Positions 1 through 25,087 of a stretch of DNA of 25,087 bases are shown piece after piece. Numbering within the stretch: position 1 is the first letter of the stretch; each line of letters begins with the position of its first letter. Both the position numbers and the translations under genes were made by a program. Below the pieces are notes generated by a model. That model had not been told where the DNA came from. It ran no database searches and saw only the letters and a program-made list of their open reading frames with translations. The DNA comes from a virus. The stretch is taken from positions 1 through 25,087 of the IMG/VR virus record IMGVR_UViG_3300048997_000233; one strand, 5' to 3'.

Positions 1-1732
1 TGCAGTTGCGGCTGCGCAGACAGCGATCGGCGACCGACAACAGGCAGTTCGCATCGGGCGGCAGATAGATGCGCACGATGTCGGCTTTCTTGTTAGCCAC
101 GTGATCGATGAAGCCGGGATCCTGATGGGAAAACCCGTTATGGTCCTGGCGCCAGACATGCGAGGTCAACAGGTAGTTCAACGATGCGATCGGCTTGCGC
201 CAGGGAATGTTGCGAGTGACCTTGAGCCACTTCGCGTGCTGATTGACCATTGAGTCGATGATGTGGATGAAGGCTTCGTAGCACGAAAACAGGCCGTGGC
301 GTCCGGTCAAGAGGTAGCCTTCGAGCCAACCCTCGCACAAATGCTCGCTCAGCACCTCCATGACGCGGCCCTCGGCGCTGAGGTTGATGTCGACCTCCTC
401 GATTTCTGCCATCCACGCCTTGCCGGTGACCTCGTACATATCGTCGAGCCTGTTGGACTCGGTCTCGTCGGGGCCGAACAGCCGGAAATTGCGGCTCGCG
501 AGGTTGAGTTTCATGACGTCGCGCAGAAACCTGCCGAGGACGCGCGTGGATTCAGCCTGGACGCTGCCGGGAGCCTCGACCGCCACGGCATAATCATCGA
601 AGTGGGGCATCGATAGCGGCTGCAGCAATTCCCCGCCATTGGCGTGCGGGTTGAACCCCATGCGGCGATGCCCGGTCGGCGCGAGCAGGGCGAACTCGTC
701 GCGAAACCGGCCGTCCTCGTCGAACAGCTCCTGCGGGCGATAGCTCCTCATCCATTTTTCGAGCTGCGTCAGATGTTCGGGGTTCTTGAAATCGGCGATC
801 GGGACCTGGTGCGCGCGCCAAGTCCCCTCGACCGGCTTGCCGTCGATAAATTTGGGTCCGGTCCAGCCTTTGGGCGTGCAGAATACGATCATCGGCCAGC
901 GCGGACGCTCCAGGCTTCCGGTGTCGCGCCGCGACCGCGCCCCGCTCTGGATCAGCCGAATCCGCGCTAGTACCGCATCGAGCGTGGCCGCGAGCGATTG
1001 ATGCACCAGCGCCGGGTCGTCGCCCTCGACGACAAGCGGATCGTAGCCATAGCCGCGCATGAGGTTGGTCAGTTCCTCGCGGCTGATGCGCGCGAGCACC
1101 GTCGGATTGGCGATCTTGAAGCCGTTCAGATGCAGGATCGGCAGCACCGCGCCGTCTCGGGCCGGATTCAGGAACTTGTTGGCGTGCCAGCTGGCGGCCA
1201 ATGCACCGGTTTCCGCCTCGCCGTCGCCGACGACGCAGGCGACGATCAGATCGGGATTATCGAAGGCGGCGCCATAGGCGTGCGCCAGCGAATAACCCAA
1301 TTCGCCGCCTTCGTGGATCGAGCCGGGGGTCTCCGGCGCCACATGGCTGGGAATTCCATACGGCCAGGAGAACTGGCGAAACAGCCGCTGCAGCCCGTTG
1401 CGGCTCTGCTCGATCGCCGGATAGCGCTCGGTGTACGAGCCTTCCAGATAGGTGTGCGCCACCAGGCCCGGCCCGCCATGGCCGGGACCAATGACATAGA
1501 TCATGTTCAGATCGTGCTGCGTAATCAGCCGGTTGAGGTGGACATAGAGAAAGTTCAATCCGGGTGTCGTGCCCCAATGCCCGAGCAGACGCGGCTTCAG
1601 GTGTTCGAGCCGCAATGGGGTTTCGAGCAGAGGATTGTCCTGCAGATAGATCTGCCCGACCGACAGATAATTCGCCGCGCGCCAATAGGCGTCCATTTTG
1701 CGCAGCAGATCGGGTGACAGCGGATCGGGCAT
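1..1732 (-). CDS. xfp: Phosphoketolase, N-terminal 577 codons (3' end outside window)
   Basis: This thiamine-diphosphate enzyme cleaves xylulose-5-phosphate (and often fructose-6-phosphate) with inorganic phosphate to acetyl-phosphate plus glyceraldehyde-3-phosphate or erythrose-4-phosphate, in the cytosol. The translation begins [20 protein letters not shown], has [17 protein letters not shown] near residues 82-98 and the diphosphate/Mg motif GDGEAETG at 169-176, and ends at the window edge after about 577 of the usual ~800 residues. I chose the ATG at 1732 because GGAG lies 6 bases upstream. ATGs at 1762 and 1756 are in frame but lack a clear ribosome site. It is host chromosomal DNA outside the prophage, transcribed away from the tRNA. 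Whether acetate kinase or phosphotransacetylase follows cannot be seen. The family assignment is secure from the motifs; substrate preference between the two sugar phosphates is not decidable from sequence. Confidence 0.95.
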
Positions 1733-2011
1733 CAGGGTCTCCAAGCTTGCCGGCATAGCCATGCAACGCAGCCTGCTCGCCCCAGTTCATCCGCAGACCA
1801 CGCGCGAGCGCTTGGCTCATTCGACGATCAGGAGGCGGTTGAGCTGGATCGCTGTCACCCACACCGTGCGGGGAGGATGCCGCAACGAGGATCGACCCGT
1901 CGTTCGGCCTGCTATAACCTCGCTGGTGGCGGATCATGGCGTTCGGCAGCAACTGCGCAAGTCAGCCGTCGCCCGCAATGGCGATGACAGGAAATCCTCG
2001 TAATTTGTATT
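1733..2011. other. Intergenic region between divergent xfp and tRNA-Ser
   Basis: This 279-bp stretch should hold the promoters for the leftward phosphoketolase gene and the rightward tRNA. I see no convincing gene in it. A TATAAC at 1913-1918 resembles a -10 box on the plus strand, but there is no matching -35 at the right distance, so I do not call a promoter. Confidence 0.5.
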
Positions 2012-2101
2012 GGATGGGTGGCCGAGCGGTTGAAGGCACCGGTCTTGAAAACCGGCAGGGGTGCAAGCTCCTCGTGGGTTCGAATCCCACCCCATCCGCC
2101 A
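2012..2101 (+). tRNA. tRNA-Ser (anticodon UGA)
   Basis: A complete cloverleaf can be drawn. The acceptor stem GGATGGG pairs with CCCATCC (2091-2097), followed by discriminator G and an encoded CCA (2099-2101). The anticodon stem CCGGT/ACCGG closes the loop CTTGAAA, with anticodon TGA at 2046-2048. A long variable arm gives about 90 nt, typical of class II serine tRNAs. The T arm GTGGG-TTCGAAT-CCCAC is intact. It should read UCA codons. The integrase lies about 150 bp downstream, so the phage probably integrated into its 3' end and restored the sequence. Confidence 0.96.
2075..2101. other. Putative attL core in the 3' end of tRNA-Ser
   Basis: This is inferred from context. Tyrosine integrases of the P4 type commonly recombine at the T-arm and 3' end of tRNA genes. 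The tRNA is intact, an integrase reads away from it about 150 bp downstream, and phage genes fill the rest of the window. The matching repeat (attR) should be a copy of this tRNA end beyond 25087. No second copy was noticed inside the window, so the exact core limits are unknown. Confidence 0.45.
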
Positions 2102-2120
2102 GCCCCACTGTTTCATAGGG

Positions 2121-2221
2121 TCCCAGACAGTCCCATTAAGTGCCATTTCCCGCAGGTTCCCTTGGTATTTTCGCGGCCGATCGGGATTGACACGTCCCAT
2201 ACCGTCCCGCATTATCCCGCA
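2121..2221. repeat. Helically phased TCCC repeats upstream of integrase
   Basis: TCCC occurs at 2121, 2131, 2148, 2158, 2195, 2205 and 2215. It falls in runs with an exact 10-bp step (2121/2131, 2148/2158, 2195/2205/2215). Several copies extend to TCCCGCA or TCCCATA. Such phasing places the sites on one face of the helix. They are candidate arm-type sites for the integrase's N-terminal arm-binding domain, or operators for the ribbon-helix-helix protein encoded after the integrase. The last three overlap the integrase promoter. Confidence 0.55.
2187..2215 (+). promoter_or_regulatory. Sigma70-type promoter for integrase
   Basis: A perfect TTGACA -35 box (2187-2192) is followed after 17 bp by CATTAT (2210-2215, four of six consensus positions). 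Transcription would start near 2222, leaving a leader of about 33 nt before the integrase ATG at 2255. The three phased TCCC repeats at 2195, 2205 and 2215 lie inside the promoter, which suggests repression by whatever binds them. Confidence 0.6.
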
Positions 2222-2254
2222 ATCATTTGTTGGATTGTTTGAGGGACAGGGGAC

Positions 2255-3526
2255 ATGGCGCGGGTGATCGGGAAGCTGACGGCGATGCAGGTCTCGCGGC
2301 TGCCGGCGGGGATGCACGGCGACGGCGGCGGGCTCTATCTGCATGTCAACGGAGCCGGGGCGCGCTCGTGGATCTTTCGCTTCATGCTCGACGGGCGGGC
2401 GCGCCAGATGGGGCTCGGGCCGGTGCATACGGTCGGGCTCGCCGAGGCGCGGAAGCGCGCCGGCGACGCGCGGATGCGCCGGCTCGACGGCGTCGATCCG
2501 ATCGAGGCGCGCGCCGCCGGCCGCACCCTCGCCAAGATCGAGGCGGCCAAGACGATCACCTTCAAAGCCTGCGCCCACAATTATATCGATGCGCACCGCG
2601 CGGATTGGCGCAACCCCAAGCATGCCGCACAATGGGATGCGACCTTGACGAGCTATGTCTATCCGGTGTTCGGCGCGCTGCCGGTCGGTGCCGTCGACGT
2701 CGGCCTGGTGTTGAAGGCGATCGAGCCGATCTGGAACATCAAGACCGAGACCGCGACCCGGGTGCGCGGCCGGATCGAGAGCATCCTCGATTGGGCCACG
2801 GCGCGCGGCTACCGCGAGGGCGAGAACCCGGCACGCTGGCGCGGCCATCTTGATCACTTGCTGGCAGCGCCATCAAAGGCCAAGCGCGCGGTGCGGGAAA
2901 AATCCGGGCGTGACGAGCATCAAGCAGCGATGCCCTATGCCGAGCTCGGCACCTTCATGGCCGAACTGCGCCAGCGCAACGCGGGCTCGGCGCGGGCGAT
3001 TGAATTTGTCATCCTGACCGCGATGCGCACCGAGACGACGCTCGGCGCCCTCGCCGGCGAAATCGATTATCAAAAGCGGATTTGGACGATCCCGGCCGGC
3101 CGGCCGGGGCTGAAACGCGACGGCAATTTCGAGGTCCCGCTGAGCGAGCCGGCCCTTATCGTGCTCCACGCCATCGGTGTCGATCCGGTCAACCAGCCCA
3201 ACCGCTATATTTTCCCCGGCGCCAAGCCCGGCCGGCCGCTGACCAACATCCTCAAATACCTGAAGGACGACATGCAGCGGCCCGCGTACACGGTGCATGG
3301 GTTTCGCAGCACCTTCAACGACTGGGCGAGCGAGTGTACCGAGTTTGACGAGAAGGTGATCCAGATGGCGCTGGCCCACAAGATCCCCGACAAGGTCGAG
3401 GCGGCCTACCGGCGCGGCGGTCTCATAGAAAAGCGGCGCCAGCTGATGGACGCCTGGGCCCGGTTCTGCGCCGCGCCCGCCGGCAGCGGCGACGTGGTGC
3501 CGCTCCGGGGTCTAGGAGGCCGATGA
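2255..3526 (+). CDS. int: Tyrosine-family prophage integrase (P4-type)
   Basis: This is a 423-residue site-specific recombinase that integrates and excises the prophage. The N-terminal ~90 residues resemble the arm-DNA-binding domain of P4-type integrases (GLYLHVNGAGARSWIFRF, residues 26-43). A core-binding region spans about 100-205 and the catalytic domain about 220-400. Candidate catalytic residues are R258 (ILTAMRT), H348 and R351 (VHGFRSTF), H375 (LAHKIP) and the nucleophile Y385 (AAYRRG). The usual Glu of the RTGE motif is replaced, since here it reads RTETT. Purine-rich AGGGGAC lies just before the ATG. The gene reads away from tRNA-Ser and overlaps a small DNA-binding protein gene at its stop. 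It is the only plus-strand block of the prophage seen here. Confidence 0.95.
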   Translation: MARVIGKLTAMQVSRLPAGMHGDGGGLYLHVNGAGARSWIFRFMLDGRARQMGLGPVHTVGLAEARKRAGDARMRRLDGVDPIEARAAGRTLAKIEAAKTITFKACAHNYIDAHRADWRNPKHAAQWDATLTSYVYPVFGALPVGAVDVGLVLKAIEPIWNIKTETATRVRGRIESILDWATARGYREGENPARWRGHLDHLLAAPSKAKRAVREKSGRDEHQAAMPYAELGTFMAELRQRNAGSARAIEFVILTAMRTETTLGALAGEIDYQKRIWTIPAGRPGLKRDGNFEVPLSEPALIVLHAIGVDPVNQPNRYIFPGAKPGRPLTNILKYLKDDMQRPAYTVHGFRSTFNDWASECTEFDEKVIQMALAHKIPDKVEAAYRRGGLIEKRRQLMDAWARFCAAPAGSGDVVPLRGLGGR

Positions 3527-14669: not shown

Positions 14670-15220
14670 CAGAGGATGCTCGTGATGATCTTGACCGCCG
14701 AGCCGATGCCGCTGAGCAGCGACGCGCCGCCGCCGATCAGCGAGGATGTCGAATTGGTGTCGGCCGCCTTCTTCGCGGCCGCGGCCGCCGTGGTGTCGAA
14801 CGCGGCCTGGTCGCTCGCGGTCTTGGCCGCCTCCTCGCCGGCGTAGAAGCGGTTCATCGCTTCGAACTTGATCTGGTTCTCGGTGTCGCCCATCACGTCC
14901 AAGGGGCTGCCGCTGTCGACATTGATCCCGCCGGCGGCGTACCCGGCGCGCTGGCGGCCGATCGTCCGGTTGGCGAGGTAGTCGCTTTCCTGCTGCGCCC
15001 GGCTCAGCGACAGCCTTGTGTTGGCCGCGGTGGTGCCGGCGACCCCGGCATTGGCGGTGTAGGCGGCGGCCTGCGCCGCGCCGGCCTGTTGCGCGCCGCC
15101 GGCGCCGATGATGCCGCCGATGCCGCCGAGCACCCCGCCGCCGAGCGCGCCGGCCGCACCGATCCCGCCGACGATGTCGCCGCTGCTGATCGACCCGAGC
15201 GGCCCCAGATCGAAATTCAT
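14669..15220 (-). CDS. Small internal virion protein (Ala/Gly-rich)
   Basis: The protein has 183 residues. It has a Gly/Ala-rich hydrophobic stretch at about 15-50 (IVGGIGAAGALGGGVLGGIG), then a helical Ala/Gln/Asn-rich region (TRLSLSRAQQESDYLANRTI) containing GYAAGGINVDSGSP. A GINVDSGSP-type motif is common in small internal proteins encoded between tail tubular protein B and the larger ejection proteins of podoviruses. The C-terminus is again hydrophobic (SLLSGIGSAVKIITSIL). I chose MNFDLGP at 15220 because it overlaps the preceding stop as ATGA; the longer frame to 15280 lies inside the previous gene. The family call is by pattern and position. Confidence 0.68.
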   Translation of the reverse strand: MNFDLGPLGSISSGDIVGGIGAAGALGGGVLGGIGGIIGAGGAQQAGAAQAAAYTANAGVAGTTAANTRLSLSRAQQESDYLANRTIGRQRAGYAAGGINVDSGSPLDVMGDTENQIKFEAMNRFYAGEEAAKTASDQAAFDTTAAAAAKKAADTNSTSSLIGGGASLLSGIGSAVKIITSIL

Positions 15221-17880
15221 TTCGGGGCCAGCTCGGTCGTGCCGCCCTTGACGACGACCGCCAAGAGGGTCATCGGCCACGGGTTCGGCTGGCGCACGAA
15301 CACCGTGCGGTGCGCCGATGAGCCGCCCGGCATGGCAACCCTCAGATCGTCGCTGAAGAGGCGCGGCGCCCAGTCGAACAGATCGTCGGTGTCGCGCGGA
15401 TCGATCGTGTCGAGGTGGTCGGCATCGGGGCCGTACTGGCCGCCGACGGTCTCGAACACCCGGAGGTACAGATGGTCGAGCCGGCCGGTCTTCATCTGGG
15501 TCGTGCCGTCGGGTGACAGGAGATCGAGGTCGAGCGTCATCAGCTCGCGGTTGGCGTAGTACCCGGCGGTGACGAGGCTCGCCGCCGGGTTGACCGTGAT
15601 CGTCCCGCCGCTGACGATCTGCGCGGGATAGAGCGCGCCGTCGCCGATCACCGCGACCGCGCGGCCGTTGAACGCGCTGAACCCGGTAAAGCTGGTCGCC
15701 ATTTTGGTATAGCTCCAGTTGCCCGACGGCGACGGCTGGGAGCTGTTCGGGCTATCCATGCACTCGGCGACGATGATCGTCGGGCTGGTGACCTGGGTCA
15801 GCCGGAACGTGCCGTTGTTGATGCGCAGCGCGGTGCCCGGGGTGAGATCGCCGGCGACCGCGAGGCTGCTGCTGAAATTGAACCCGACCGCGTCGCCGCG
15901 CTTCGGGATCACCGGCTGCAACGTGACCGGATCGAGGGCGAAAAGCGGCGTGCAGATCATCGCCGGGAAGGTCAAGGGCGATGAGATCGCGCTGTCCTGG
16001 AACACCGCCTGGTCGAGCGGCTGCGCCCGGAACGGCGGGGTCGAGACCTCGATTGTGCGGGTCAAGCCGCCGCCCGGGTCGTTGCGCAGAACGCTGAGCC
16101 ACACCTCGTCATAGGGCGTCGGATCGGCGCTGGTGGCGACCGCGAGGCTTTCGACAAACGGCGGCGCGCCCCAATACGTGCCGCCGAGCGTGTGCGGGTG
16201 CCAGGCGGCGACCTGGACGTTGCCGTTGGGGTCGTCGGCGAGATAGGTCAGCCCGACCAGGGCGCCGTTATTGGTGACCGCCCAGATGATCTGGTGCGGG
16301 CTCTGCGCGTAGTCGAGCTGCTTCAGCCCCTTCAGCATCAGGTGGCGGCCGAACGGCGCCGGCTCGGGGCCGATCATCCCGCCGGCGACCCAGCGATAGA
16401 TCCACTGGCGCAAGCGCTGGCCGCTGCCGTCGACGAAGAGGAGGGCCTTGCCGATCCGGAGCGGCATCACCGGCGCGCTGGTGTATTTGGTCTCGCGGTA
16501 GGCCTGGACGTTGGTCTGGGTCAGCGCCGCGCCGACCGATGACGGCGACACGATGAATTCGCCGTCGCCGGCGCCGATGCCGATCTCCGGGGTCTGGAAA
16601 TTGCCGGCCGGACTGGCCCAGCGGATCGGGTCGGCCTGGTCGTCGTCGAGGTCGAAGGCCAGCGCCGAGGTATCGAGCACCTGGCCGCTGGCGAGGCTCG
16701 GCGCCATGTTCAGATAGTTCGAGAGGCCGATCTGCGAGCCCCAGACGCGCTTCGGCGCGTTGACATTGCTGAACGCCAAGAGGCGCTGCTGGAATGTCGC
16801 GCCGCCCACTTGCGGATACCCCTCATAGGGGCACCAGGCGCCGAGCCGCCATGTGTTGAGGGCGGCGGTGGTGGCGAACACGCCCTGCAATGTGTTGCCG
16901 AGCGCGTCGAGCGTCATCAGCCCGAGCGACAGGGTCACCACGGTGGCGCTGGTCCACGCGGTGATCGTCCCCCACAGCCACACCGCGGTCTCGAATTGCG
17001 GCCAGGTCGGGTTGACGCTGATGCCGCTGCCGAGCCCCGAGGTCGAGCCTTGCAGCACCGGGTTGGCCGGCGCCACCAGATACTGCCCGGGATCGGTGAT
17101 GACCGCGTCCTTGACCGCGCCGCCGGCGGCGATCGCCGTCACCGTCAAGACCGCCGGGCGGATGAACACCCCGCCGGCCAGGGTGATCGTGTCGCCCGGG
17201 TTGTAGTTCGTCCCGAAGCTGATGACGGTGGCGCCGGTATAGCTGAGCCCGAGGGTCTGCTGCGAGATCCGCACCGGCCGCCCGACGTCGTCGGCGCGGA
17301 ACCCGGTGCCGCCGTTGATCCCGACGGTCGAGCTCGAGGTCAGGGTGACGCTGGTCGCACCGGCCGCGCTCGGGGTGACCGTCGTGCTGTTCGGCACCGC
17401 ATCGAGATAGGGGCCGTCGGCAAACACCGGCGCGGCCAAGCCAAAGCTTGTCGGGGCGACCCAATTGAGGGTCTGCGGCGGGTGCGCGCTGTGCCAGATG
17501 AAGAGCCGGCCGGGCTGTCGGGTGAAGCTGAGCCCGGCGATGTCGCCGGCGGCGTAGGGCGTCGCCACCTCGAGTGGACCGCCCGACAGCACCTGCGCCC
17601 GCTTCAAAAAAAAGCGGATATAGCCCGGCCCGAATTCGAGGATGAAGTTGAGCCCGGCGGCCGGGCTGAAGCGTTCGAGCCGCACCGGCAGCGACGGGCT
17701 GGCATTCTTCGCCGGCGCAACATAGCGGAACCCCGGCCGGCTGGTCGCCCCGCCCTGCGGCAGGATCAGCATGTTGCGGGCGCTCGCCAGCGCCTCCTTG
17801 TAGCCCGGCAAATCGGTGCGCGACGAATATTCCGGCGCCCACTCGCCGGCGGAAAAGCTCGATTGGATGAGGCTCGGCAT
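15217..17880 (-). CDS. Tail tubular protein B (T7 gp12-like)
   Basis: The protein has 887 residues, somewhat longer than T7 gp12 (about 790). The N-terminus carries the usual family pattern: SSFSAGEWAPEYSSRTDLPG, an RNMLILPQGGATSRPGFRYV segment, a basic RLERFSP and LNFILEFGPGYIRFFLKR. The rest is beta-rich with SPAGNFQTPEIGIGAGDGEF-type strands. Such proteins form the tubular tail/nozzle below the adaptor ring and guide DNA during ejection. It starts at TGATG after the mini zinc-finger gene and ends in an ATGA overlap with the small internal virion gene. A run of eight T in the coding strand (17606-17613) lies in the FFLKR region; it is unusual in such a GC-rich gene but in frame. Confidence 0.85.
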   Translation of the reverse strand: MPSLIQSSFSAGEWAPEYSSRTDLPGYKEALASARNMLILPQGGATSRPGFRYVAPAKNASPSLPVRLERFSPAAGLNFILEFGPGYIRFFLKRAQVLSGGPLEVATPYAAGDIAGLSFTRQPGRLFIWHSAHPPQTLNWVAPTSFGLAAPVFADGPYLDAVPNSTTVTPSAAGATSVTLTSSSTVGINGGTGFRADDVGRPVRISQQTLGLSYTGATVISFGTNYNPGDTITLAGGVFIRPAVLTVTAIAAGGAVKDAVITDPGQYLVAPANPVLQGSTSGLGSGISVNPTWPQFETAVWLWGTITAWTSATVVTLSLGLMTLDALGNTLQGVFATTAALNTWRLGAWCPYEGYPQVGGATFQQRLLAFSNVNAPKRVWGSQIGLSNYLNMAPSLASGQVLDTSALAFDLDDDQADPIRWASPAGNFQTPEIGIGAGDGEFIVSPSSVGAALTQTNVQAYRETKYTSAPVMPLRIGKALLFVDGSGQRLRQWIYRWVAGGMIGPEPAPFGRHLMLKGLKQLDYAQSPHQIIWAVTNNGALVGLTYLADDPNGNVQVAAWHPHTLGGTYWGAPPFVESLAVATSADPTPYDEVWLSVLRNDPGGGLTRTIEVSTPPFRAQPLDQAVFQDSAISSPLTFPAMICTPLFALDPVTLQPVIPKRGDAVGFNFSSSLAVAGDLTPGTALRINNGTFRLTQVTSPTIIVAECMDSPNSSQPSPSGNWSYTKMATSFTGFSAFNGRAVAVIGDGALYPAQIVSGGTITVNPAASLVTAGYYANRELMTLDLDLLSPDGTTQMKTGRLDHLYLRVFETVGGQYGPDADHLDTIDPRDTDDLFDWAPRLFSDDLRVAMPGGSSAHRTVFVRQPNPWPMTLLAVVVKGGTTELAPK

Positions 17881-18083
17881 CAGAGAAGCCGCGGCCCGAA
17901 CTGGGCCTCCTCAATCGCCCGCCTGGCTGCGGCGAGCGCTCGCGCCGCCTCAGCTCCCCTGGCGCCGCGCGTCGCGCGTTTCTGGGCGGCCGGCAACAGG
18001 CGCCAGTGGAACGGGCAGAAATACCCGAAGCGGATCTCGGCCTTGCAGCCGACCGCCTGGCACCGGATGTTATCGTCGCTCAT
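17880..18083 (-). CDS. Mini zinc-finger-like protein between tail tubular genes
   Basis: The protein has 67 residues. The N-terminal half has C8, C13, C23 and H26 (CQAVGCKAEIRFGYFCPFHW), a CX4C-X9-CX2H arrangement able to bind one zinc. The C-terminal half is an Arg/Ala-rich helix (RATRGARGAEAARALAAARR). The ATG at 18083 lies 2 bases after the stop of the adaptor gene and the stop overlaps the next ATG as TGATG, so it is tightly embedded in the operon. I recognise no named family. It might be a virion assembly factor or a small nucleic-acid-binding regulator; both are guesses. High-GC codon use matches its neighbours. Confidence 0.72.
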   Translation of the reverse strand: MSDDNIRCQAVGCKAEIRFGYFCPFHWRLLPAAQKRATRGARGAEAARALAAARRAIEEAQFGPRLL

Positions 18084-18085
18084 GG

Positions 18086-20362
18086 CTACCAGCGCGCGCG
18101 CAGCAACAGATCGGCGTCGAACTGGCGCGGGCTCGCCTGCTGCGCGCTGGTGGTGCGCGCGAGGCTGACATAGCGCTCGCATTCGACCGTCATCGCCTGT
18201 TTCAGGTTGAGGTCGCGCATCAGCGTCCACGCCAGATTGGCCGCGATGTCGAAGACGATCGCCTTGACCAGCAGCGGGTCCATCAGGGTCGGGTTGGTCA
18301 GGTCGAAGATGTAGGTCACGTCGAGCGGCGAGCCGGCGTCGGTCACGACGCAGCGCCCGAGGCCCGCGATGTTGATGATCTCCCAGCGCGTGCGGCCGTC
18401 TTCCGGCAGTTCGTAAAACCGGATGAAATCGGCCGGGAGCACATAGGCGTTGCCATAGGTGAACAACGGCGCCGTCGCCGACGCGGTCAGCTGCGCCTGG
18501 ACCTTGGCGCAGCGCCACGGCGCCGCCTCCAGCATCGCGCGGCGCGCCGGGTTGTAGAACTGCCGCGCGAGCCGCGCGCGCCGGTCGTTTTCCGGCGGGT
18601 CGGCGCTGGCCTTCGGGTCGTCGCCGAGCATCGCCAGCGCCATCGCGCTGATCCCGGCCGCGGTCGTCTCGTCGGCGAGGAGGTTGCGCGGGCTGACCTG
18701 CGACGCGCTGATCGCCGCCGCCATCGCCAGATGCGCGTCGCGCTCGCTCAACAGCGAGGTCTTGAGGTTGAGGTCGGCGCGCAGCGCCCAGGCGAGGTTG
18801 GCCGCGATGTCGGCGATGATCGCCTTGACCAGCAGCGGATCCATCTGGGTCGGATCGGCGAGGTCAAACACATAGGTGACGTGCACCGGGGTCGGCGCGT
18901 CGGTCATCAGGCAGCGCCCGACGGAGGGCACGTTGACCAGCTCCCAGCGCATGTCGTCGGCGTCCGGCAACTCGTAAAACCGGATGAAATCCGTGGGGAG
19001 CACATAGGCCGTCGAATAGGTGAACAACGGTGGCGTCCCCGACGCGGTCAGCGCGGCCTGGCGCCTTGCGCAGCGCCACGGCGCCGCTTCGAGCATCGCG
19101 CGCCGCGACGGGTCGTAGAACTGCCGCGCCAGCCGCGCGCGCCGGTTGTTCTCCGGCGGGTCGACATTGCCCTTCGGGTCCTCGCCGAGCATCGCCAGCG
19201 CCATCGCGCTGATCCCGGTCGAGCTCGTCGCGCCGGCAACGAGGTTGCGATAGCTCGCCTGCTCGGCGCTGATCGCGGCGGCCATCGTCAGATGCGCATC
19301 GCGCTCGGCGAGGATCGAGGTCTTCAGGTTGAGGTCGCGCATCAGCGCCCAGGCCAGGTTGGCCGCGATGTCGGCGATGATCGCCTTGACCAACAGCGGG
19401 TCCATCTGGGTCGGGTCGGTCAGGTCGAACACATAGGTCACATGGACCGGGCCCGGAGCGTCGGTCATCAGGCAGCGCCCGATGGAGGGCACGTTGACCA
19501 GCTCCCAGCGCATGTCGTCGGCGTCCGGCAATTCGTAGAACCGGATGAAATCCGCGGGCAGCACAAAGGACCCGGCATAGGTGAAGAGCGGCACCGTCAA
19601 GGACCCGGTCAAAATCACCTGGCGCTTGGCGCAGCGCCACGGCGCGGCCTCGAGCATCGCGCGGCGCGAGGTGTCGTAGAACTGCCGCGCCAGCCGGCCG
19701 CGCCGGTTGTTCTCCGGCGGGTCGACGTTGCCCTTGGGGTCCTCGCCGAGCATCGCCAGCGCCATCGCGCTGATCCCGGCCGCACTCGTCGCGCTGGCGA
19801 GGAGGTTGCGGAAGCTGGCCTGCTCGGCGCTCGACGCGGCGGCCTGCGCGAGATAGCCGTCGCGATCGGCCTGGCAGCTCTGTTTGAGGCTCATGTCGCG
19901 GACCAGCGGCCACGCCATGTTGGCGCCGAGCTCGGCGGCGATCGCCATCACCAGGAGCGGCGTCATCTCGGTGCAGTCGAGGAGATCGAACACATAGGTG
20001 ATGTCTAGGGGTGCGGTCGCATCGGTGACGACGCAGCGGCCGATGCCGGGCAGGTTCATCACCTCCCAGCGCTGGTCGTCGGCGACCGGCAGTTCGTAGA
20101 ACCGGATGAAATCGGCCGGCAGCACATAGCAATGGGCATAGGTGAAGGCGGGCGGCGCCGTCGTCTCGGCGAGCTGCGCCGTGCGCTTGGCGCAGCGCCA
20201 CGGCGAGGCTTCGAGCATCGCCCGCCGGCTGGTGTCGTAGAACTGGCCGCTGAGGCGCCCGCGCTTGTTGTTGTCGGGCGGATCGACATTCTCGATCGGG
20301 TCCTCGCTGAGCATCGCGAGGGCCATGTTCGAAATCGATGTCGGGCTGTCGCCGGCGGCCAT
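18086..20362 (-). CDS. Quadruple-repeat tail tubular protein A-like adaptor
   Basis: The protein has 758 residues, made of four consecutive copies of one adaptor domain starting at residues 9, 196, 383 and 570, each 187 residues apart. Every copy has the series (S/G)IS(N/A)MALAML, ENN/DNN-RR.RL..QFY, RRAMLEA.PWRCAK, a LPADFIRFYEL-type strand, GRC(V/L)(V/M)TDA, TY(V/I)FDL and a final long helix. This is the pattern of T7 gp11-like tail tubular proteins, which are normally one domain of about 190-200 residues and form the 12-subunit ring joining portal and tail. Copies 2 and 3 are most alike; copies 1 and 4 share variants such as VVTDA and PLD. No stops or shifts interrupt the frame. It lies between the capsid genes and tail tubular protein B, where an adaptor is expected. 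The family call is by motif, not by search. Confidence 0.85.
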   Translation of the reverse strand: MAAGDSPTSISNMALAMLSEDPIENVDPPDNNKRGRLSGQFYDTSRRAMLEASPWRCAKRTAQLAETTAPPAFTYAHCYVLPADFIRFYELPVADDQRWEVMNLPGIGRCVVTDATAPLDITYVFDLLDCTEMTPLLVMAIAAELGANMAWPLVRDMSLKQSCQADRDGYLAQAAASSAEQASFRNLLASATSAAGISAMALAMLGEDPKGNVDPPENNRRGRLARQFYDTSRRAMLEAAPWRCAKRQVILTGSLTVPLFTYAGSFVLPADFIRFYELPDADDMRWELVNVPSIGRCLMTDAPGPVHVTYVFDLTDPTQMDPLLVKAIIADIAANLAWALMRDLNLKTSILAERDAHLTMAAAISAEQASYRNLVAGATSSTGISAMALAMLGEDPKGNVDPPENNRRARLARQFYDPSRRAMLEAAPWRCARRQAALTASGTPPLFTYSTAYVLPTDFIRFYELPDADDMRWELVNVPSVGRCLMTDAPTPVHVTYVFDLADPTQMDPLLVKAIIADIAANLAWALRADLNLKTSLLSERDAHLAMAAAISASQVSPRNLLADETTAAGISAMALAMLGDDPKASADPPENDRRARLARQFYNPARRAMLEAAPWRCAKVQAQLTASATAPLFTYGNAYVLPADFIRFYELPEDGRTRWEIINIAGLGRCVVTDAGSPLDVTYIFDLTNPTLMDPLLVKAIVFDIAANLAWTLMRDLNLKQAMTVECERYVSLARTTSAQQASPRQFDADLLLRARW
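18089..20338 (-). repeat. Four tandem 561-bp coding repeats
   Basis: Units are 20338-19778, 19777-19217, 19216-18656 and 18655-18089. Landmark CATCGCGCTG (plus strand) recurs at 18641, 19202 and 19763, with the diverged copy CATGTTCGAA at 20324, so the period is exactly 561 bp each time. The phase is 187 codons and never breaks. Similarity is high between the inner units and lower at the outer ones, consistent with ancient unequal crossing-over followed by drift under selection. Confidence 0.95.
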
Positions 20363-20379: not shown

Positions 20380-20988
20380 TCAGCCTTCCATCGTGTACGT
20401 GACGCGCACCCGCAGCGTGCCCGAGCCGGGCAGGGAAGCGGCGCCGACCGTCATGATGATGTCTTCGAAGTTGAACCCGCCCTGCGCCGGGGCCTGCGGC
20501 ATCGTCGCCGTCGTCGGCTTGCCGAGATAGTCGTACCCGGTGTTGATCTGCACCCCGCAGGTCGCCAGCGGCGGCCCGAACCTGGTGTTCGTGTTGAGCG
20601 CGGTCAGCGTCGCCGCGGCGCCGTAGATCGCGCTGTTGGCGTTATGCGCGTCGCCGAACGCCAGGGTGGCGGAGCCGAGCGAGGTGTCGGTGATGACATC
20701 GATCGAATCGATGACCGCGAACAGCGGCAGCCGGCACACCGCAAAGACGGTGCCCGAAGCCTGCGCCGCCATCGTGAACGTCGCCGATTTCCGCCGCACC
20801 CTGCCGCCGTCGAGATTGACCTGGTTCAGCACCTGGATGCCGCCGGCCATATTGCCCGACAGGTTGGTCATCAAGTCGCTGAACGCCGTCGCCGGAGTAT
20901 CGACAAACGCGATGTTGGGCGAGTGGTACAAACCCCATTCGTCGATGCGGGCGAGCCCGCCGAGCCTCTTGTACTGGAACGGATGCAT
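20380..20988 (-). CDS. Capsid-linked structural protein, unknown family
   Basis: The protein has 202 residues. It begins MHPFQYKRLGGLARIDEWGL and is mostly beta-type with alternating small and hydrophobic residues (VFAVCRLPLFAVIDSIDVIT, SATLAFGDAHNANSAIYGAA), ending in a strand RVRVTYTMEG. Proteins of this size and texture often follow the capsid gene in podovirus genomes. It may be a head decoration or head-completion protein. GGGGAG lies about 9 bases before the ATG, and three 7-bp repeats lie just before that. The adaptor gene follows after 17 bp. The structural role is inferred from position. Confidence 0.68.
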   Translation of the reverse strand: MHPFQYKRLGGLARIDEWGLYHSPNIAFVDTPATAFSDLMTNLSGNMAGGIQVLNQVNLDGGRVRRKSATFTMAAQASGTVFAVCRLPLFAVIDSIDVITDTSLGSATLAFGDAHNANSAIYGAAATLTALNTNTRFGPPLATCGVQINTGYDYLGKPTTATMPQAPAQGGFNFEDIIMTVGAASLPGSGTLRVRVTYTMEG

Positions 20989-21026: not shown

Positions 21027-21050
21027 TTGTCTGCGTCTACACGCAGACAA
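21027..21050 (-). promoter_or_regulatory. Perfect 10-bp stem-loop over the capsid stop codon
   Basis: TTGTCTGCGT and ACGCAGACAA flank a 4-nt loop (GTAG on the coding strand). The loop contains the TAG stop of the capsid gene. No T tract follows on the coding strand, so it is not a standard intrinsic terminator. It could stabilise the capsid mRNA end or mark an RNase processing site. Confidence 0.65.
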
Positions 21051-21972
21051 TCTCGACGACTTTCACCTCTTCGAGGCGGGCCGCGCCGATCGCCATGTCG
21101 CTGTAGACGTAGAGCCCGAACCGTTTGTCGGCGCGCTCGGAGATGCGGCTTTCGATGCCGCGCGCGACCCCCATGCCGAGCCCGGATTTGCGCCACGCCA
21201 TGACCCTGGTCTGGCCCGACCCGTTGAGCTGCTGGCGCTCGGTATGGATGAAGTTGAAGTTGATGAAGCTGCCGCCCTGGATCTTGCCGCGGGTCAGCTC
21301 GCGGACCGCGTTGTAGTCGGCGTTGGTGAATTCGGTGGTGGCCAGGAGGTTGCCGAACTGCTTGGCGCCGCACCCGAGATAGATCTCTTCGTCTTCCTCG
21401 CCCTCGCCGGTCTGCAACGCGACCAGCGCCGAGATCAGCTTGGAGACGGTGAGGCCCGAATTGCCCGAGCCGTTGCCGTAGGTCCAATCGTTGACCGCGA
21501 CGACGGTGCCGGCCGGCTGCGCTGGCGTGCTTTCGGTGTTGCCGTTCGGCCAGGTCAGGGCGGTGGCGCCGGCATGCCCGGCATAGGCGACGCCGAACCC
21601 CGCGGCGATCGCCTCGTCGTCGAACCCGCGCTGCATCGCAAACGCGGCGTTTTGGGCATAGGTCGAGGCCGGGTCGATCAACAGCCGGGCGCGGTCGAGC
21701 CGGTCGACCAAATCGCCCCAATCGTAATCGTAGGGCGCGATCCGGCGGCGCAGATGCTGGGTGTTCATCATCGGGCTGTCGGAATGCCGGGCGATGACCT
21801 TGCGCGCGCCGGTCGGGGCGACCTGCTCCATGTAGGCCGCCTCGCCGGTGATGTTGTCCTCCATGAGGCAGGGCCGGAAACGCGAATACTTCTGCTGTGC
21901 GAGAAACCGCACATTGCTCGAAAAGGCGAGCACCATGGCGTCGGTGACGGTAAAAGACACTGGGTTCTCCAT
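21037..21972 (-). CDS. Major capsid protein
   Basis: The protein has 311 residues. It matches the pattern of a common podovirus/prophage capsid family: FTVTDAMVLAFSSNVRFLAQ at the start, then LMEDNITGEAAYMEQVAPTG, a RHSDSPMMNTQHLRRRIAPY segment and YDWGDLVDRLDRARLLIDP-like helix, YAQNAAFAMQRGFDDEAIAA, and the later GQTRVMAWRKSGLGMGVARG. An HK97-type fold is expected for this family but cannot be verified from sequence alone. The scaffold gene lies upstream. The gene is isolated by 292 bp from the scaffold and by 48 bp from the next gene, with stem-loops on both sides, unlike the tightly overlapped genes further on. No close ribosome site is obvious: GAGGA lies 15 bases before the ATG, in the loop of a predicted hairpin. 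Confidence 0.88.
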   Translation of the reverse strand: MENPVSFTVTDAMVLAFSSNVRFLAQQKYSRFRPCLMEDNITGEAAYMEQVAPTGARKVIARHSDSPMMNTQHLRRRIAPYDYDWGDLVDRLDRARLLIDPASTYAQNAAFAMQRGFDDEAIAAGFGVAYAGHAGATALTWPNGNTESTPAQPAGTVVAVNDWTYGNGSGNSGLTVSKLISALVALQTGEGEEDEEIYLGCGAKQFGNLLATTEFTNADYNAVRELTRGKIQGGSFINFNFIHTERQQLNGSGQTRVMAWRKSGLGMGVARGIESRISERADKRFGLYVYSDMAIGAARLEEVKVVEIVCV

Positions 21973-22264: not shown

Positions 22265-23203
22265 TTATGCAGCGGCCGTCGCCGCCGCGAATTCGCTCAG
22301 CCGCATCAGCTTGGCGACTGCGTCGTCGTGGCCGATCGCCGCCTTGTCCATCAGCGTCTTCGCCATCGCCGGGTCGGCATACATGTCGTTGATCTGCTGC
22401 ATCGCCTCGGCCGGGGCGAGGGCGCCGTTGCCGGTGCCGCCGGCCGCCCTGCCGATTACCTTGTCCTCGACCATCTGGCCGCCGAGGTGCGCGAACACTT
22501 CGCTTAATGCCACGCGCGCCTCGGATGGCATTTTGCCGATTGCCTCGCGCAGTTGGCCGCCGAGGTTCAGCGTCTGGTCGAGATGTGCGACTGCGGCTTC
22601 GGAGTTCAGAAGCTTTTCGCCATAGGCCGCGCCCCACTTGGTCTTCAGGGTTGCGTCGGCGGCGCGCAAGCCGTCGGCCTCGCTGCCGACCATGCGGGTG
22701 AAGGCGTCGATGCGCTGCCCGTTCCACCACTGATAGAGCGCGTCGGCCTGTTTCTGGCCGAGCCCCAGCTCGTGCGCCTTGGCCGCGAAATTGGTCTTCA
22801 GTTCGGGGTTGAGGTTGAACCCGGCCGGCGGCGCCGCTGGATCGGCCAGCGCGTATTTGTCGGCGCTCTCGGGCCGGCCGAGCTTGTTGTAGATCGCGTC
22901 CCAACCGGGCTTGTCGTCGGGCCCGGCGAGGCGGATCAGCTGCTCCGGCGGGACCCCGATCAGCTTCGCCTGGTTGAACGCGCGGGTTGCGAGATTGGGG
23001 ACATCCTTGATGTCCTTGAAATAGGCCTCGGTCCGGATATCCTCCGGGATCTGCGCCAGAAACGCAGCGACGCCGGCGGCCGCATCCCCCCCAGGAGAGC
23101 CGCCGGCGCCGGTCCCGGCGGTCGCTGCCGCCGCCGCGGCCGTGCTGCCCGCAGCGGCGCCCGCACCGGAACCTGAAGCTGCTGCCGTACCCGCGTCGCT
23201 CAT
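22265..23203 (-). CDS. Capsid assembly scaffolding protein
   Basis: The protein has 312 residues. A low-complexity Ala/Gly/Ser N-terminus (about 1-45) precedes IPEDIRTEAYFKDIKDVPNL, then NQAKLIGVPPEQLIRLAG and IYNKLGRPESADKYALAD, a series I associate with phage scaffold proteins; the remainder is helical and charged (ADALYQWWNGQRIDAFTRMV). Scaffolds direct shell assembly and leave before DNA packaging. It is encoded just upstream of the capsid gene, as is usual. Its ATG directly follows the TAG of the secreted-protein gene, with AAGGG about 8 bases upstream. A large inverted repeat follows its stop. Confidence 0.78.
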   Translation of the reverse strand: MSDAGTAAASGSGAGAAAGSTAAAAAATAGTGAGGSPGGDAAAGVAAFLAQIPEDIRTEAYFKDIKDVPNLATRAFNQAKLIGVPPEQLIRLAGPDDKPGWDAIYNKLGRPESADKYALADPAAPPAGFNLNPELKTNFAAKAHELGLGQKQADALYQWWNGQRIDAFTRMVGSEADGLRAADATLKTKWGAAYGEKLLNSEAAVAHLDQTLNLGGQLREAIGKMPSEARVALSEVFAHLGGQMVEDKVIGRAAGGTGNGALAPAEAMQQINDMYADPAMAKTLMDKAAIGHDDAVAKLMRLSEFAAATAAA

Positions 23204-23539
23204 CTACTGGCCCTTCACTGTGACCGGCGTTGCTGCGCCGCTGGCGATGCAGGTCAGCGGGCCGATAAACTCGACATTGGCCGCCGACCAGGTGCGCGTC
23301 GTCCCCAGCGGCATGGTGTACGAACCGGCGGTGTTGATCGCCGGGGTGGTGCCGTCATCGGTGCAGGCGATCGTCGCCGTCGTGCTTTCGTTGTCGACCA
23401 CCATCAGCCGATAGGGGTGCGTGGTCTTCGCCGCGAGGCACACGATCGGGCTGGTGCCCACCGTGCACGGCGCGGCGAACGCCGGCGCCGATGCGGCGAT
23501 CAGGATGGCTGTCGCCAACCATTTCAGCGCGCGCCGCAT
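23204..23539 (-). CDS. Small secreted protein with four cysteines
   Basis: The protein has 111 residues. A classical signal peptide (MRRALKWLATAILIAASAPA, likely cut after AFA near residue 23) precedes a small beta-rich domain with C25, C34, C59 and C97, which could form two disulfides in the periplasm. AGGAGA lies 8 bases before the ATG. The TAG stop is followed at once by the scaffold ATG. I recognise no family. A periplasmic protein in a head gene block is odd. It might be a virion-surface protein, or an envelope protein altering the infected cell. Confidence 0.72.
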   Translation of the reverse strand: MRRALKWLATAILIAASAPAFAAPCTVGTSPIVCLAAKTTHPYRLMVVDNESTTATIACTDDGTTPAINTAGSYTMPLGTTRTWSAANVEFIGPLTCIASGAATPVTVKGQ

Positions 23540-23550
23540 CCCGGTTCTCC

Positions 23551-23907
23551 TCACAGCAGCGGCAGCACGATCGGCAGCACGATCCCGGCGATCCGCCCGG
23601 CCTCCTGGGCTGCCTGCAATGCTCCCGGCAGCCAGCTCGGCGACGATGAATTGGCGGTCGCCGGCACCCCGCCGGCCAGCACCTGGGCGCAGAACGCCGC
23701 CGGATAGCTCGCGGTCTGCGCGAGCGGCGCCGGCGCGCCGGGCGCGGTCGCCGTGGCCAGCGCCGACGCGTTCGCCTCGCATGTCGTCCTCAGCTGCGCG
23801 AGGTCGGCCGGCGACAGCGAAGCGGTCGGGTCGGTGCCCCCGCACGCCGCGAGCGCGCCGGCGAGAACCAGCCCGGCGGCCGCACCGATCGTCCTGGCGC
23901 GGGTCAT
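23551..23907 (-). CDS. Putative lipoprotein
   Basis: The protein has 118 residues. Basic start MTRARTIGAA, a hydrophobic core and the lipobox LAAC place the lipidated cysteine at residue 22 (GLVLAGALAACGG). The mature part is short and Ala/Pro-rich with two more cysteines, ending in a hydrophobic tail (AGRIAGIVLPIVLPLL). It should be anchored in the outer or inner membrane. Its ATG overlaps the stop of the coiled-coil gene as ATGA. Possible roles are an outer-membrane spanin displaced from the lysis cassette or a superinfection-exclusion lipoprotein; neither is shown by the sequence. Confidence 0.7.
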   Translation of the reverse strand: MTRARTIGAAAGLVLAGALAACGGTDPTASLSPADLAQLRTTCEANASALATATAPGAPAPLAQTASYPAAFCAQVLAGGVPATANSSSPSWLPGALQAAQEAGRIAGIVLPIVLPLL

Positions 23908-24266
23908 GCCGCCGGCGCCGCCGGCGCGGCCGGCGCGGCCGGCGCCAGGATCTCGGCGAGCTTGGCCTTGTTGGCTTCGGCCGCGGCAAAGGCGGCGTCG
24001 ATGCCGGCCTGCACCTCCGGCGGGATCGTCGTGTTGGCGAGCGCAGCGGCGAGGTCGGTGCGCAATTGCGTCATCGCGAGGTCGAGGTGCTCGAGGGCGG
24101 TCAGTTCGGCCTGTTCGTCGGCAACCACCTGGTCGATCGTCTGCATCGTCTTCGCTCCTTGGGTTACGAGTTGGTCGAGCTTGTCGTCGTGCCCGGCAAG
24201 CCGGCGCTCGATCCCGTCGAGCCGGGCCTTGATGTGGCGGAACGCATCGAGCGCTGCATAATCCAT
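23904..24266 (-). CDS. Small coiled-coil protein with possible internal start
   Basis: The protein has 120 residues and is almost entirely helical. Residues 10-35 (RHIKARLDGIERRLAGHDDK) and 45-75 (ADEQAELTALEHLDLAMTQL) have heptad-like spacing, and the end is a (PAA)n repeat. The first ATG (24266) lies 3 bases after the previous stop and has a weak ribosome site. An in-frame ATG at 24146 (residue 41) has AAGGAG 8 bases upstream and would give an 80-residue form. Third positions are GC-rich across both parts, so the longer form is probably also translated. No family name is recognised; similar small coiled-coil proteins occur in phage structural blocks. Confidence 0.62.
   Translation of the reverse strand: MDYAALDAFRHIKARLDGIERRLAGHDDKLDQLVTQGAKTMQTIDQVVADEQAELTALEHLDLAMTQLRTDLAAALANTTIPPEVQAGIDAAFAAAEANKAKLAEILAPAAPAAPAAPAA
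23908..23945. repeat. GCC-rich 9-bp tandem repeat encoding (Pro-Ala-Ala)n
   Basis: About four GGCGC(G/C)GCC units in tandem encode the Pro-Ala-Ala repeat at the C-terminus of the coiled-coil protein. Length variation here would change only the tail and could arise by slippage. Confidence 0.7.
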
Positions 24267-24269
24267 GCG

Positions 24270-25087
24270 TCACGGGATCTCGTCGGCGACGATGTCGACA
24301 TCGGCGATCGAGGCATTGCCGGCGGTCACCGCGGCGAGCCCGACATCGATCCACACCGCGGTCGAGAGGGTGAGGCCGGTCACCGTGTACTGGACGCAGA
24401 ACGGCGCCTTGCCGGCCGACGTCGAAGCGACGTACTTGACGAGGCTCCCGCGCGTCGTGCCGGTCAGCGCCGCGGCATTGGCCGGCGCGCCGCCGGTGCC
24501 GGTGCGCAATTGCACATTCGTGCCACTCGCGACGGTGCTGTTGGCGATGTCGCCGCACACCGAAAAATGCACCTTGCCGCTGGCCGTCGGGGTGATCGTG
24601 CCGGCGAGGCCCATCATCACCCCGGTCGTCGAGGTGGTCAGCGTCGGCGCCGCAACGCTCGACTGGGTGTGGGCATAGCTCGTCAGCATCGTGTTGGTGA
24701 CGGTGCCGCTGTCGCCCGAACCGATGACTGTGTAGGACGCCGCGCTCGGAAAGGTGATCGTGTTGGCGGTCGAGCCGAGCGCCAGCGTGTGCGCGACATT
24801 CTTCACATCGAAGGTCAGCGCCCGCCCGGCGGTCAGCGCAGTCGATGATGTCGCGCCCAGGGTGACATCGAAGGCGGCCGAGGTGTCGCGCAATGCGGCA
24901 TTGCCGATCTCGACAGTTGTCAGGGCGCCGCCGGATTGTTGGATCTGGAACGGCGTCGTGGAAGCGGTCGACGTCTGAATAAACGATTGTGTTGCGAGAG
25001 CGCCGACCAGCATGCTGCCGGTGCCGCTGCCGATCTGGAGGTAGCCGTTGGTTCCCGAGGTCGTAAACGTATCGATCGTACCGCTGG
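24270..25087 (-). CDS. Putative structural protein, 5' end outside window
   Basis: The frame is open to the right window edge, reading ...TFTTSGTNGYLQIGSGTGSM before the first internal ATG at 25013, so the true start lies beyond 25087. The visible ~271 residues are beta-rich and dominated by Thr, Ser, Ala, Gly and Val (FQIQQSGGALTTVEIGNAAL, FPSAASYTVIGSGDSG), with only two cysteines late on. This texture fits a phage fibre, decoration or minor virion protein. It is the first gene seen of the leftward operon; the coiled-coil gene follows after 3 bp. No named family was recognised. Confidence 0.65.
   Translation of the reverse strand, partial: SGTIDTFTTSGTNGYLQIGSGTGSMLVGALATQSFIQTSTASTTPFQIQQSGGALTTVEIGNAALRDTSAAFDVTLGATSSTALTAGRALTFDVKNVAHTLALGSTANTITFPSAASYTVIGSGDSGTVTNTMLTSYAHTQSSVAAPTLTTSTTGVMMGLAGTITPTASGKVHFSVCGDIANSTVASGTNVQLRTGTGGAPANAAALTGTTRGSLVKYVASTSAGKAPFCVQYTVTGLTLSTAVWIDVGLAAVTAGNASIADVDIVADEIP

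Follow-up and report, generated by a model that had tools for sequence, protein, structure and literature searches.

The window, which is the whole stretch of DNA analyzed here, is a 25,087-base IMG/VR virus record. Its left end (2-3526) contains a phosphoketolase-like host gene, tRNA-Ser(TGA) and a tyrosine integrase, and is the probable attachment-site end of a prophage. These elements place the window as the left part of a prophage. The minus strand encodes scaffold, capsid, decoration, adaptor, nozzle, internal virion proteins, spike and a GH25 endolysin. No portal or terminase gene is present in the window; both are presumably located past its right end. ORFs at 23204-25087, upstream of the scaffold gene, have no match among kin. 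The genes around the adaptor are as follows.

22265..23203, minus strand: probable scaffold, syntenic with kin; weak protease-family match (PHROG 458, E = 1e-4)
21037..21972, minus strand: major capsid protein (Phage_capsid_2), 66% identical to the closest kin
20380..20988, minus strand: capsid-decoration-type protein, 42-47% identical to the best kin; weak match to PHROG 486; position as in kin
18086..20362, minus strand: four-unit fused portal-tail adaptor gene, 758 aa, ATG start with GAGGA upstream
17880..18083, minus strand: small Cys/His-containing ORF of 67 aa between adaptor and nozzle
15217..17880, minus strand: nozzle (gp12-like), identified by its match to PHROG 376 and by synteny with kin

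The 67-aa ORF has weak matches to unknown PHROGs only. At its position, the adaptor and nozzle genes of kin abut or overlap.

The adaptor gene is one 758-aa frame consisting of four units with an exact period of 187 residues (561 bp), and its ATG is preceded by GAGGAACCGGGAAC. The coordinates, strand, length and period given by the sequence-only reading were all correct. When the chain was compared with itself, 404 of 571 residues (71%) were identical at an offset of 187, 240 of 384 at 374 and 104 of 197 at 561. All remaining offsets from 50 to 599 gave 20% identity or less. The four units are:

19802..20362, minus strand: unit 1, aa 1-187, with the canonical N-terminus (M1, N12, I25) and without the C-terminal tail
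19241..19801, minus strand: unit 2, aa 188-374, an inner unit, 85% identical to unit 3
18680..19240, minus strand: unit 3, aa 375-561, an inner unit
18089..18679, minus strand: unit 4, aa 562-758, the sole unit with the family's C-terminal D-x-(D/V)-L-L-R-x-R tail

Pairwise identity among the units is 55-85% at the amino acid level and 68-86% at the nucleotide level. Estimates of dN/dS between them, which the sequence-only reading had proposed to make, are 0.32-0.71. Exact stretches common to units are at most 48 nt long, and copy number is therefore unambiguous in short-read assembly. Together with the divergence of the units, this indicates that the copy number is real, as that reading had taken it to be. 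The frame is open across 851 codons. Separate translation of the units was considered and rejected, since no start codon is found where units begin. The nearest in-frame ATGs are located 36 nt inside the units and have no Shine-Dalgarno match, which also argues against it.

Sequence, fold and gene order identify the 758-aa protein as a podophage portal-tail adaptor. PHROG 394 (tail protein) matches four stretches of it (E = 6e-132), and each unit matches this family. Searched against the PDB, a profile built from the window units and single-copy kin matched the Carin-1 connector (8ck1_E, E = 2e-29) and LME-1 orf17 (9efk_T, E = 2e-9). This profile search did not reach T7 gp11, which was reached by fold comparison. 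The AF2 model of unit 4 (pLDDT 83.9, pTM 0.76) consists of a four-helix bundle and a small beta-domain (the fibre dock), as expected of the adaptor family. In Foldseek comparisons it gave a TM-score of 0.73 to 8ck1_E and about 0.6 to T7 gp11 structures (0.61 to 7box). The structural matches were adaptors, and matches to beta-sandwich tail-tube proteins were absent. The order capsid-decoration-adaptor-nozzle is the same in the window and in the kin compared (L007-L020). In these kin, whose capsid identity is as high as 66%, a single-unit adaptor occupies this place and shares at most 49% identity with a window unit. The T7 gp11-like assignment proposed earlier is therefore borne out. Described podophage adaptors (PHROG 394, T7 gp11/Pfam Tube, SU10_adaptor, the Carin-1 connector and LME-1 orf17) share sequence family, fold and gene order with the window protein, which would likewise be located under the portal. 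Unlike the window protein, they have one unit of about 190 aa per chain, which is the usual state of the family and not a strictly defining one. In the window, four units are fused in 758 aa, and the terminal motifs are split between the first and the last.

The core family invariants (the W57, P73, F75, L83, P84, D86, Y131 and D134 columns) are kept in all four window units. M1, N12 and I25 are invariant in 19 of 19 single-copy kin, and only unit 1 of the array keeps them. The C-terminal D...L..R tail, invariant or nearly so in kin, is found in unit 4 only. The earlier claim of a full motif series in each copy thus applies to the core and fails at both termini. The changes at N12 and I25 are common to units 2-4, so each may be one event in their common ancestor. 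In T7 gp11, the C-terminal residue R196 reaches the portal stem; some other phages have a flexible stretch in place of the C-terminal helix, which is hence not universal (PMC6702177). By analogy with R196, the tail of unit 4 may have the same role. The window chain carries this tail once rather than on every subunit. In the full-length AF2 model (pLDDT 80.4, pTM 0.39), in which the geometry between units is weakly determined, helix 4 and the next helix 1 are only 3-4 residues apart at each join. The joins within the array are alike, with S-x-R-N-L before the boundary and L/V-A after it.

A scan of contigs revealed a second fused array, and a relative of it was found in a different metagenome.

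L265:3483-6296 (IMGVR_UViG_3300015050_000735), plus strand: five-unit fused adaptor, 938 aa
L345:3950-5005 (IMGVR_UViG_3300045453_000011), plus strand: partial relative of L265; two units and the beginning of a third precede the contig end

L265 is one 938-aa frame with five PHROG 394 units of about 170 aa (E = 6e-173), and its gene order is the same as in the window. Its termini follow the window's rule: the canonical N-terminus is found in the first unit only and the C-terminal tail in the last only. The joins are also built in the same way, with helix 4 running into the next helix 1 and almost no linker. The two arrays do not have the same join sequences. Among the inner units of L265, unit 4 is the most degenerate one, and unit 5 contains an E1_FCCH domain inserted in the dock region. 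L345 is 72% identical to L265. Between the two, unit 1 is 74% identical to unit 1 and unit 2 is 72% identical to unit 2, whereas units 1 and 2 within L265 are only 46% identical. At these orthologous positions dN/dS is 0.135 and 0.104 (Nei-Gojobori; synonymous sites near saturation), and by this measure the units are under purifying selection. The position-wise orthology and low dN/dS indicate that the array is old, vertically inherited and position-specific. Two further phages, L346 (1523-3019) and L347 (2690-4411), have two adjacent unfused adaptor genes each. Gene 1 of one pairs with gene 1 of the other, and gene 2 with gene 2. The paralogues have thus been retained in both phages. The first adaptor gene in both has an additional N-terminal part of about 120 aa, and in L347 the second gene carries a dock-region insertion.

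Apart from these arrays, the kin are overwhelmingly single-copy, among them 179 isolate-phage records and more than 120 prophages. As a positive control, the profile used for the survey returned four matches on the window. It found the adaptor in 101 of 385 genomes of one class, 18 of 398 genomes of the phylum and 6 of 96 genomes from the order of a possible host relative, always as a single unit per place. Genomes with two matches had them on separate contigs or far apart. A single-adaptor query of isolate phages returned 179 records and 179 places. Viral contigs contributed 216 distinct sequences to the adaptor set, genomes 39 and phages 6, and the set formed 185 clusters at 90% identity with all sources together. 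These surveys agree with the earlier statement that the family is normally single-domain. Among all loci examined, only the window and L265/L345 have fused adaptors. In early scans of viral and genome contigs, neither the 758-aa protein nor the four-unit alignment found relatives, and no further fused arrays were found in plasmid records or in 297 genomes of another phylum. The search for other architectures that had been suggested earlier therefore returned mostly single units, with four in the window, five in L265 and the two adjacent genes of L346 and L347.

Several candidates for additional fusions were rejected. The long open frames in L034, L046, L064/L071 and L094/L095 were considered as two-unit adaptors, and their extra sequence contains no adaptor. 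In L094 and L095 (4919-6034 in both), the open frame continues upstream for about 185 codons that contain no adaptor domain, which is a frame overlap and no fusion. PHROG 9239, which includes Vibrio phage VP2 Q6RCF4, has a length of 741 aa, close to 4 x 185, and was considered as an already known family with four units. It resembles the window protein in having an adaptor domain inside a longer chain, but all single adaptors align to its positions 1-190 only. The remainder is non-adaptor, and this is a different fusion. Three BFVD models, A0A6J5LSM0 (512 aa), A0A516L4P3 (583 aa) and A0A516M5L4 (1,139 aa), align with the four-unit model across more than a single unit, with E values from 4e-25 to 3e-21 versus about 1e-9 for singles. 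Structural similarity suggests that they are candidate multi-unit adaptor proteins. We found no description of a tandem adaptor in the open-licence papers that our literature search covered, which is not proof that none exists. Tandem fusion of the adaptor is rare but recurrent, and the uniqueness that the sequence-only reading implied is contradicted by L265 and L345.

Phylogenetic analysis placed the window units in one clade (100/99), inside the clade of single-copy adaptors of the capsid kin (100/99), and the L265/L345 units in a separate clade (100/99). Both arrays' trees take the form (first,(last,(inner))). The tree indicates that the window array, whose four homologous units have one origin and have been maintained by selection, grew stepwise as (1,(4,(2,3))), with units 2 and 3 the newest duplicates. 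Forcing both arrays into one clade gave a tree 43.7 log-units worse, with p = 0.085 in the AU test. This favors separate origins without proving them, and the fused ring adaptor appears to have arisen more than once. Seven sites divide units 1 and 4 from units 2 and 3, and the other pairings are seen at two sites and one site. A purely functional difference between outer and inner units was rejected as the explanation, because the pattern is partly accounted for by units 2 and 3 being the newest duplicates. The outer units often retain ancestral residues. The earlier suggestion that outer and inner variants mark fixed positions is thus supported by the position-wise orthology in the five-unit lineage, and is in part a record of duplication history.

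How would four fused units be arranged? We propose that the chain is a covalent arc of neighboring ring subunits between portal and nozzle, a reading to which we give about even weight. Consecutive units would be lateral neighbors in the ring, and helix 4 of one would end almost where helix 1 of the next starts. Three chains would fill the twelve positions under the portal, and the free N-terminal face of unit 1 would meet unit 4 of the next chain. A canonical N-terminal face would then be needed on unit 1 only, and a portal-reaching C-terminal tail on unit 4 only. If so, three C-terminal tails reach the portal instead of twelve. The T7-type adaptor is an up-down four-helix bundle (PMC6702177), a geometry that would place both termini at one end. 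Such a position of the termini, combined with a 3-4-residue join, favors lateral neighbors over stacked rings. T7 gp11 stays a monomer without the portal (PMC6702177), and fusion may aid assembly of the ring. Terminal invariants are retained only at the outer ends of the chain in both arrays, which supports covalent arcs. Three chains per ring, one of the arrangements that the sequence-only reading had offered, is the most economical model, with 12-fold symmetry taken from the family. The unit numbers reached during stepwise growth (2, 3 and 4) each divide 12, which is consistent with three chains of four. However, the five units in L265 cannot tile a 12-position ring and contradict a simple rule of 12 divided by n. 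L265 has either surplus units, a ring other than a plain 12-mer, or a chain that is cleaved. For this reason we regard three chains of four as an evenly balanced proposition.

Cleavage of the chain at its three joins would release four subunits, and a mixture of these would build an ordinary ring of 12 subunits. This would work with any number of units, including five, and the likeness of the joins inside the window array and the weak protease-family match of the scaffold-like neighbor are in line with it. We consider it unlikely, because every unit would fall short of a complete canonical adaptor, with the N-terminal invariants missing from units 2-4 and the C-terminal tail from units 1-3. 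The join sequences also differ between the two arrays, and each join, with its 3-4-residue linker, coincides with or adjoins a predicted helix, leaving little space for a protease site. Adaptor cleavage is not known to be required in T7-like tails. Equally improbable is an arrangement in which some units enter the ring and the rest lie outside it or form an extra layer, for example as fibre- or spike-docking domains. L265 would need surplus units if its ring has 12 places, and its degenerate unit 4 and the insertion in the dock region of unit 5 agree with this. All four window units, however, keep the core family invariants, and the near-zero linkers in the model would give little freedom to swing out.

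Twelve chains could instead form a stack in which each unit makes its own 12-fold ring, giving a longer neck. Any number of units fits such a stack, and the C-terminal tail would be needed on the portal-proximal unit only. With the termini probably at one end, as the bundle geometry suggests (PMC6702177), a stacked neighbor would be a full ring height away, which 3-4 residues cannot span, and we regard this arrangement as highly improbable. We give scarcely any weight to the possibility that the array is an artefact of assembly or that the gene is decaying in a dead prophage. The array lies on a single contig fragment, and dN/dS between its units is only moderately below one. Against this, the units differ by 14-32% in DNA, exact repeats are short and the frame is open. 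In addition, the second fused lineage is present in two metagenomes with dN/dS of 0.10-0.14 at orthologous positions.

The covalent-arc reading has a counterpart in the T5 tail-tube protein pb6, in which a duplicated and fused subunit forms a trimeric, pseudo-hexameric ring (PMC5717097). The window protein likewise has tandem copies of a ring subunit in one chain, and fewer chains would give a pseudo-higher symmetry. pb6 differs in its beta-sandwich tube fold, its two units and its location in the tail tube, whereas the window protein is a portal adaptor. L265/L345, which came to light in the present analysis and are not a system described before, have tandem fused PHROG 394 units and the same type of join, termini rule and gene order. 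They differ from the window in having five units of about 170 aa and the E1_FCCH insertion in unit 5, and are apparently of separate origin.

The symmetry-matching collar from portal to nozzle is the adaptor, whose twelve subunits are regarded as equal. This equivalence would be lost in fused arrays whose units are specific to their positions. It is possible, although we put it forward only tentatively, that several podophage lineages independently swapped a free 12-subunit adaptor for covalent multi-unit arcs with position-specialized units, forming a ring of three- or lower-fold symmetry between the 12-fold portal and the 6-fold nozzle. If this is correct, a chain of five units means that the ring differs from a plain 12-mer or that it leaves units over. 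The fused arrays would be natural covalent constructs for examining contacts at each position, assembly of the ring on the portal and the handover from 12-fold symmetry to the 6-fold nozzle. The four-unit, five-unit and two-gene forms make the evolutionary route and the divide-12 idea directly testable.
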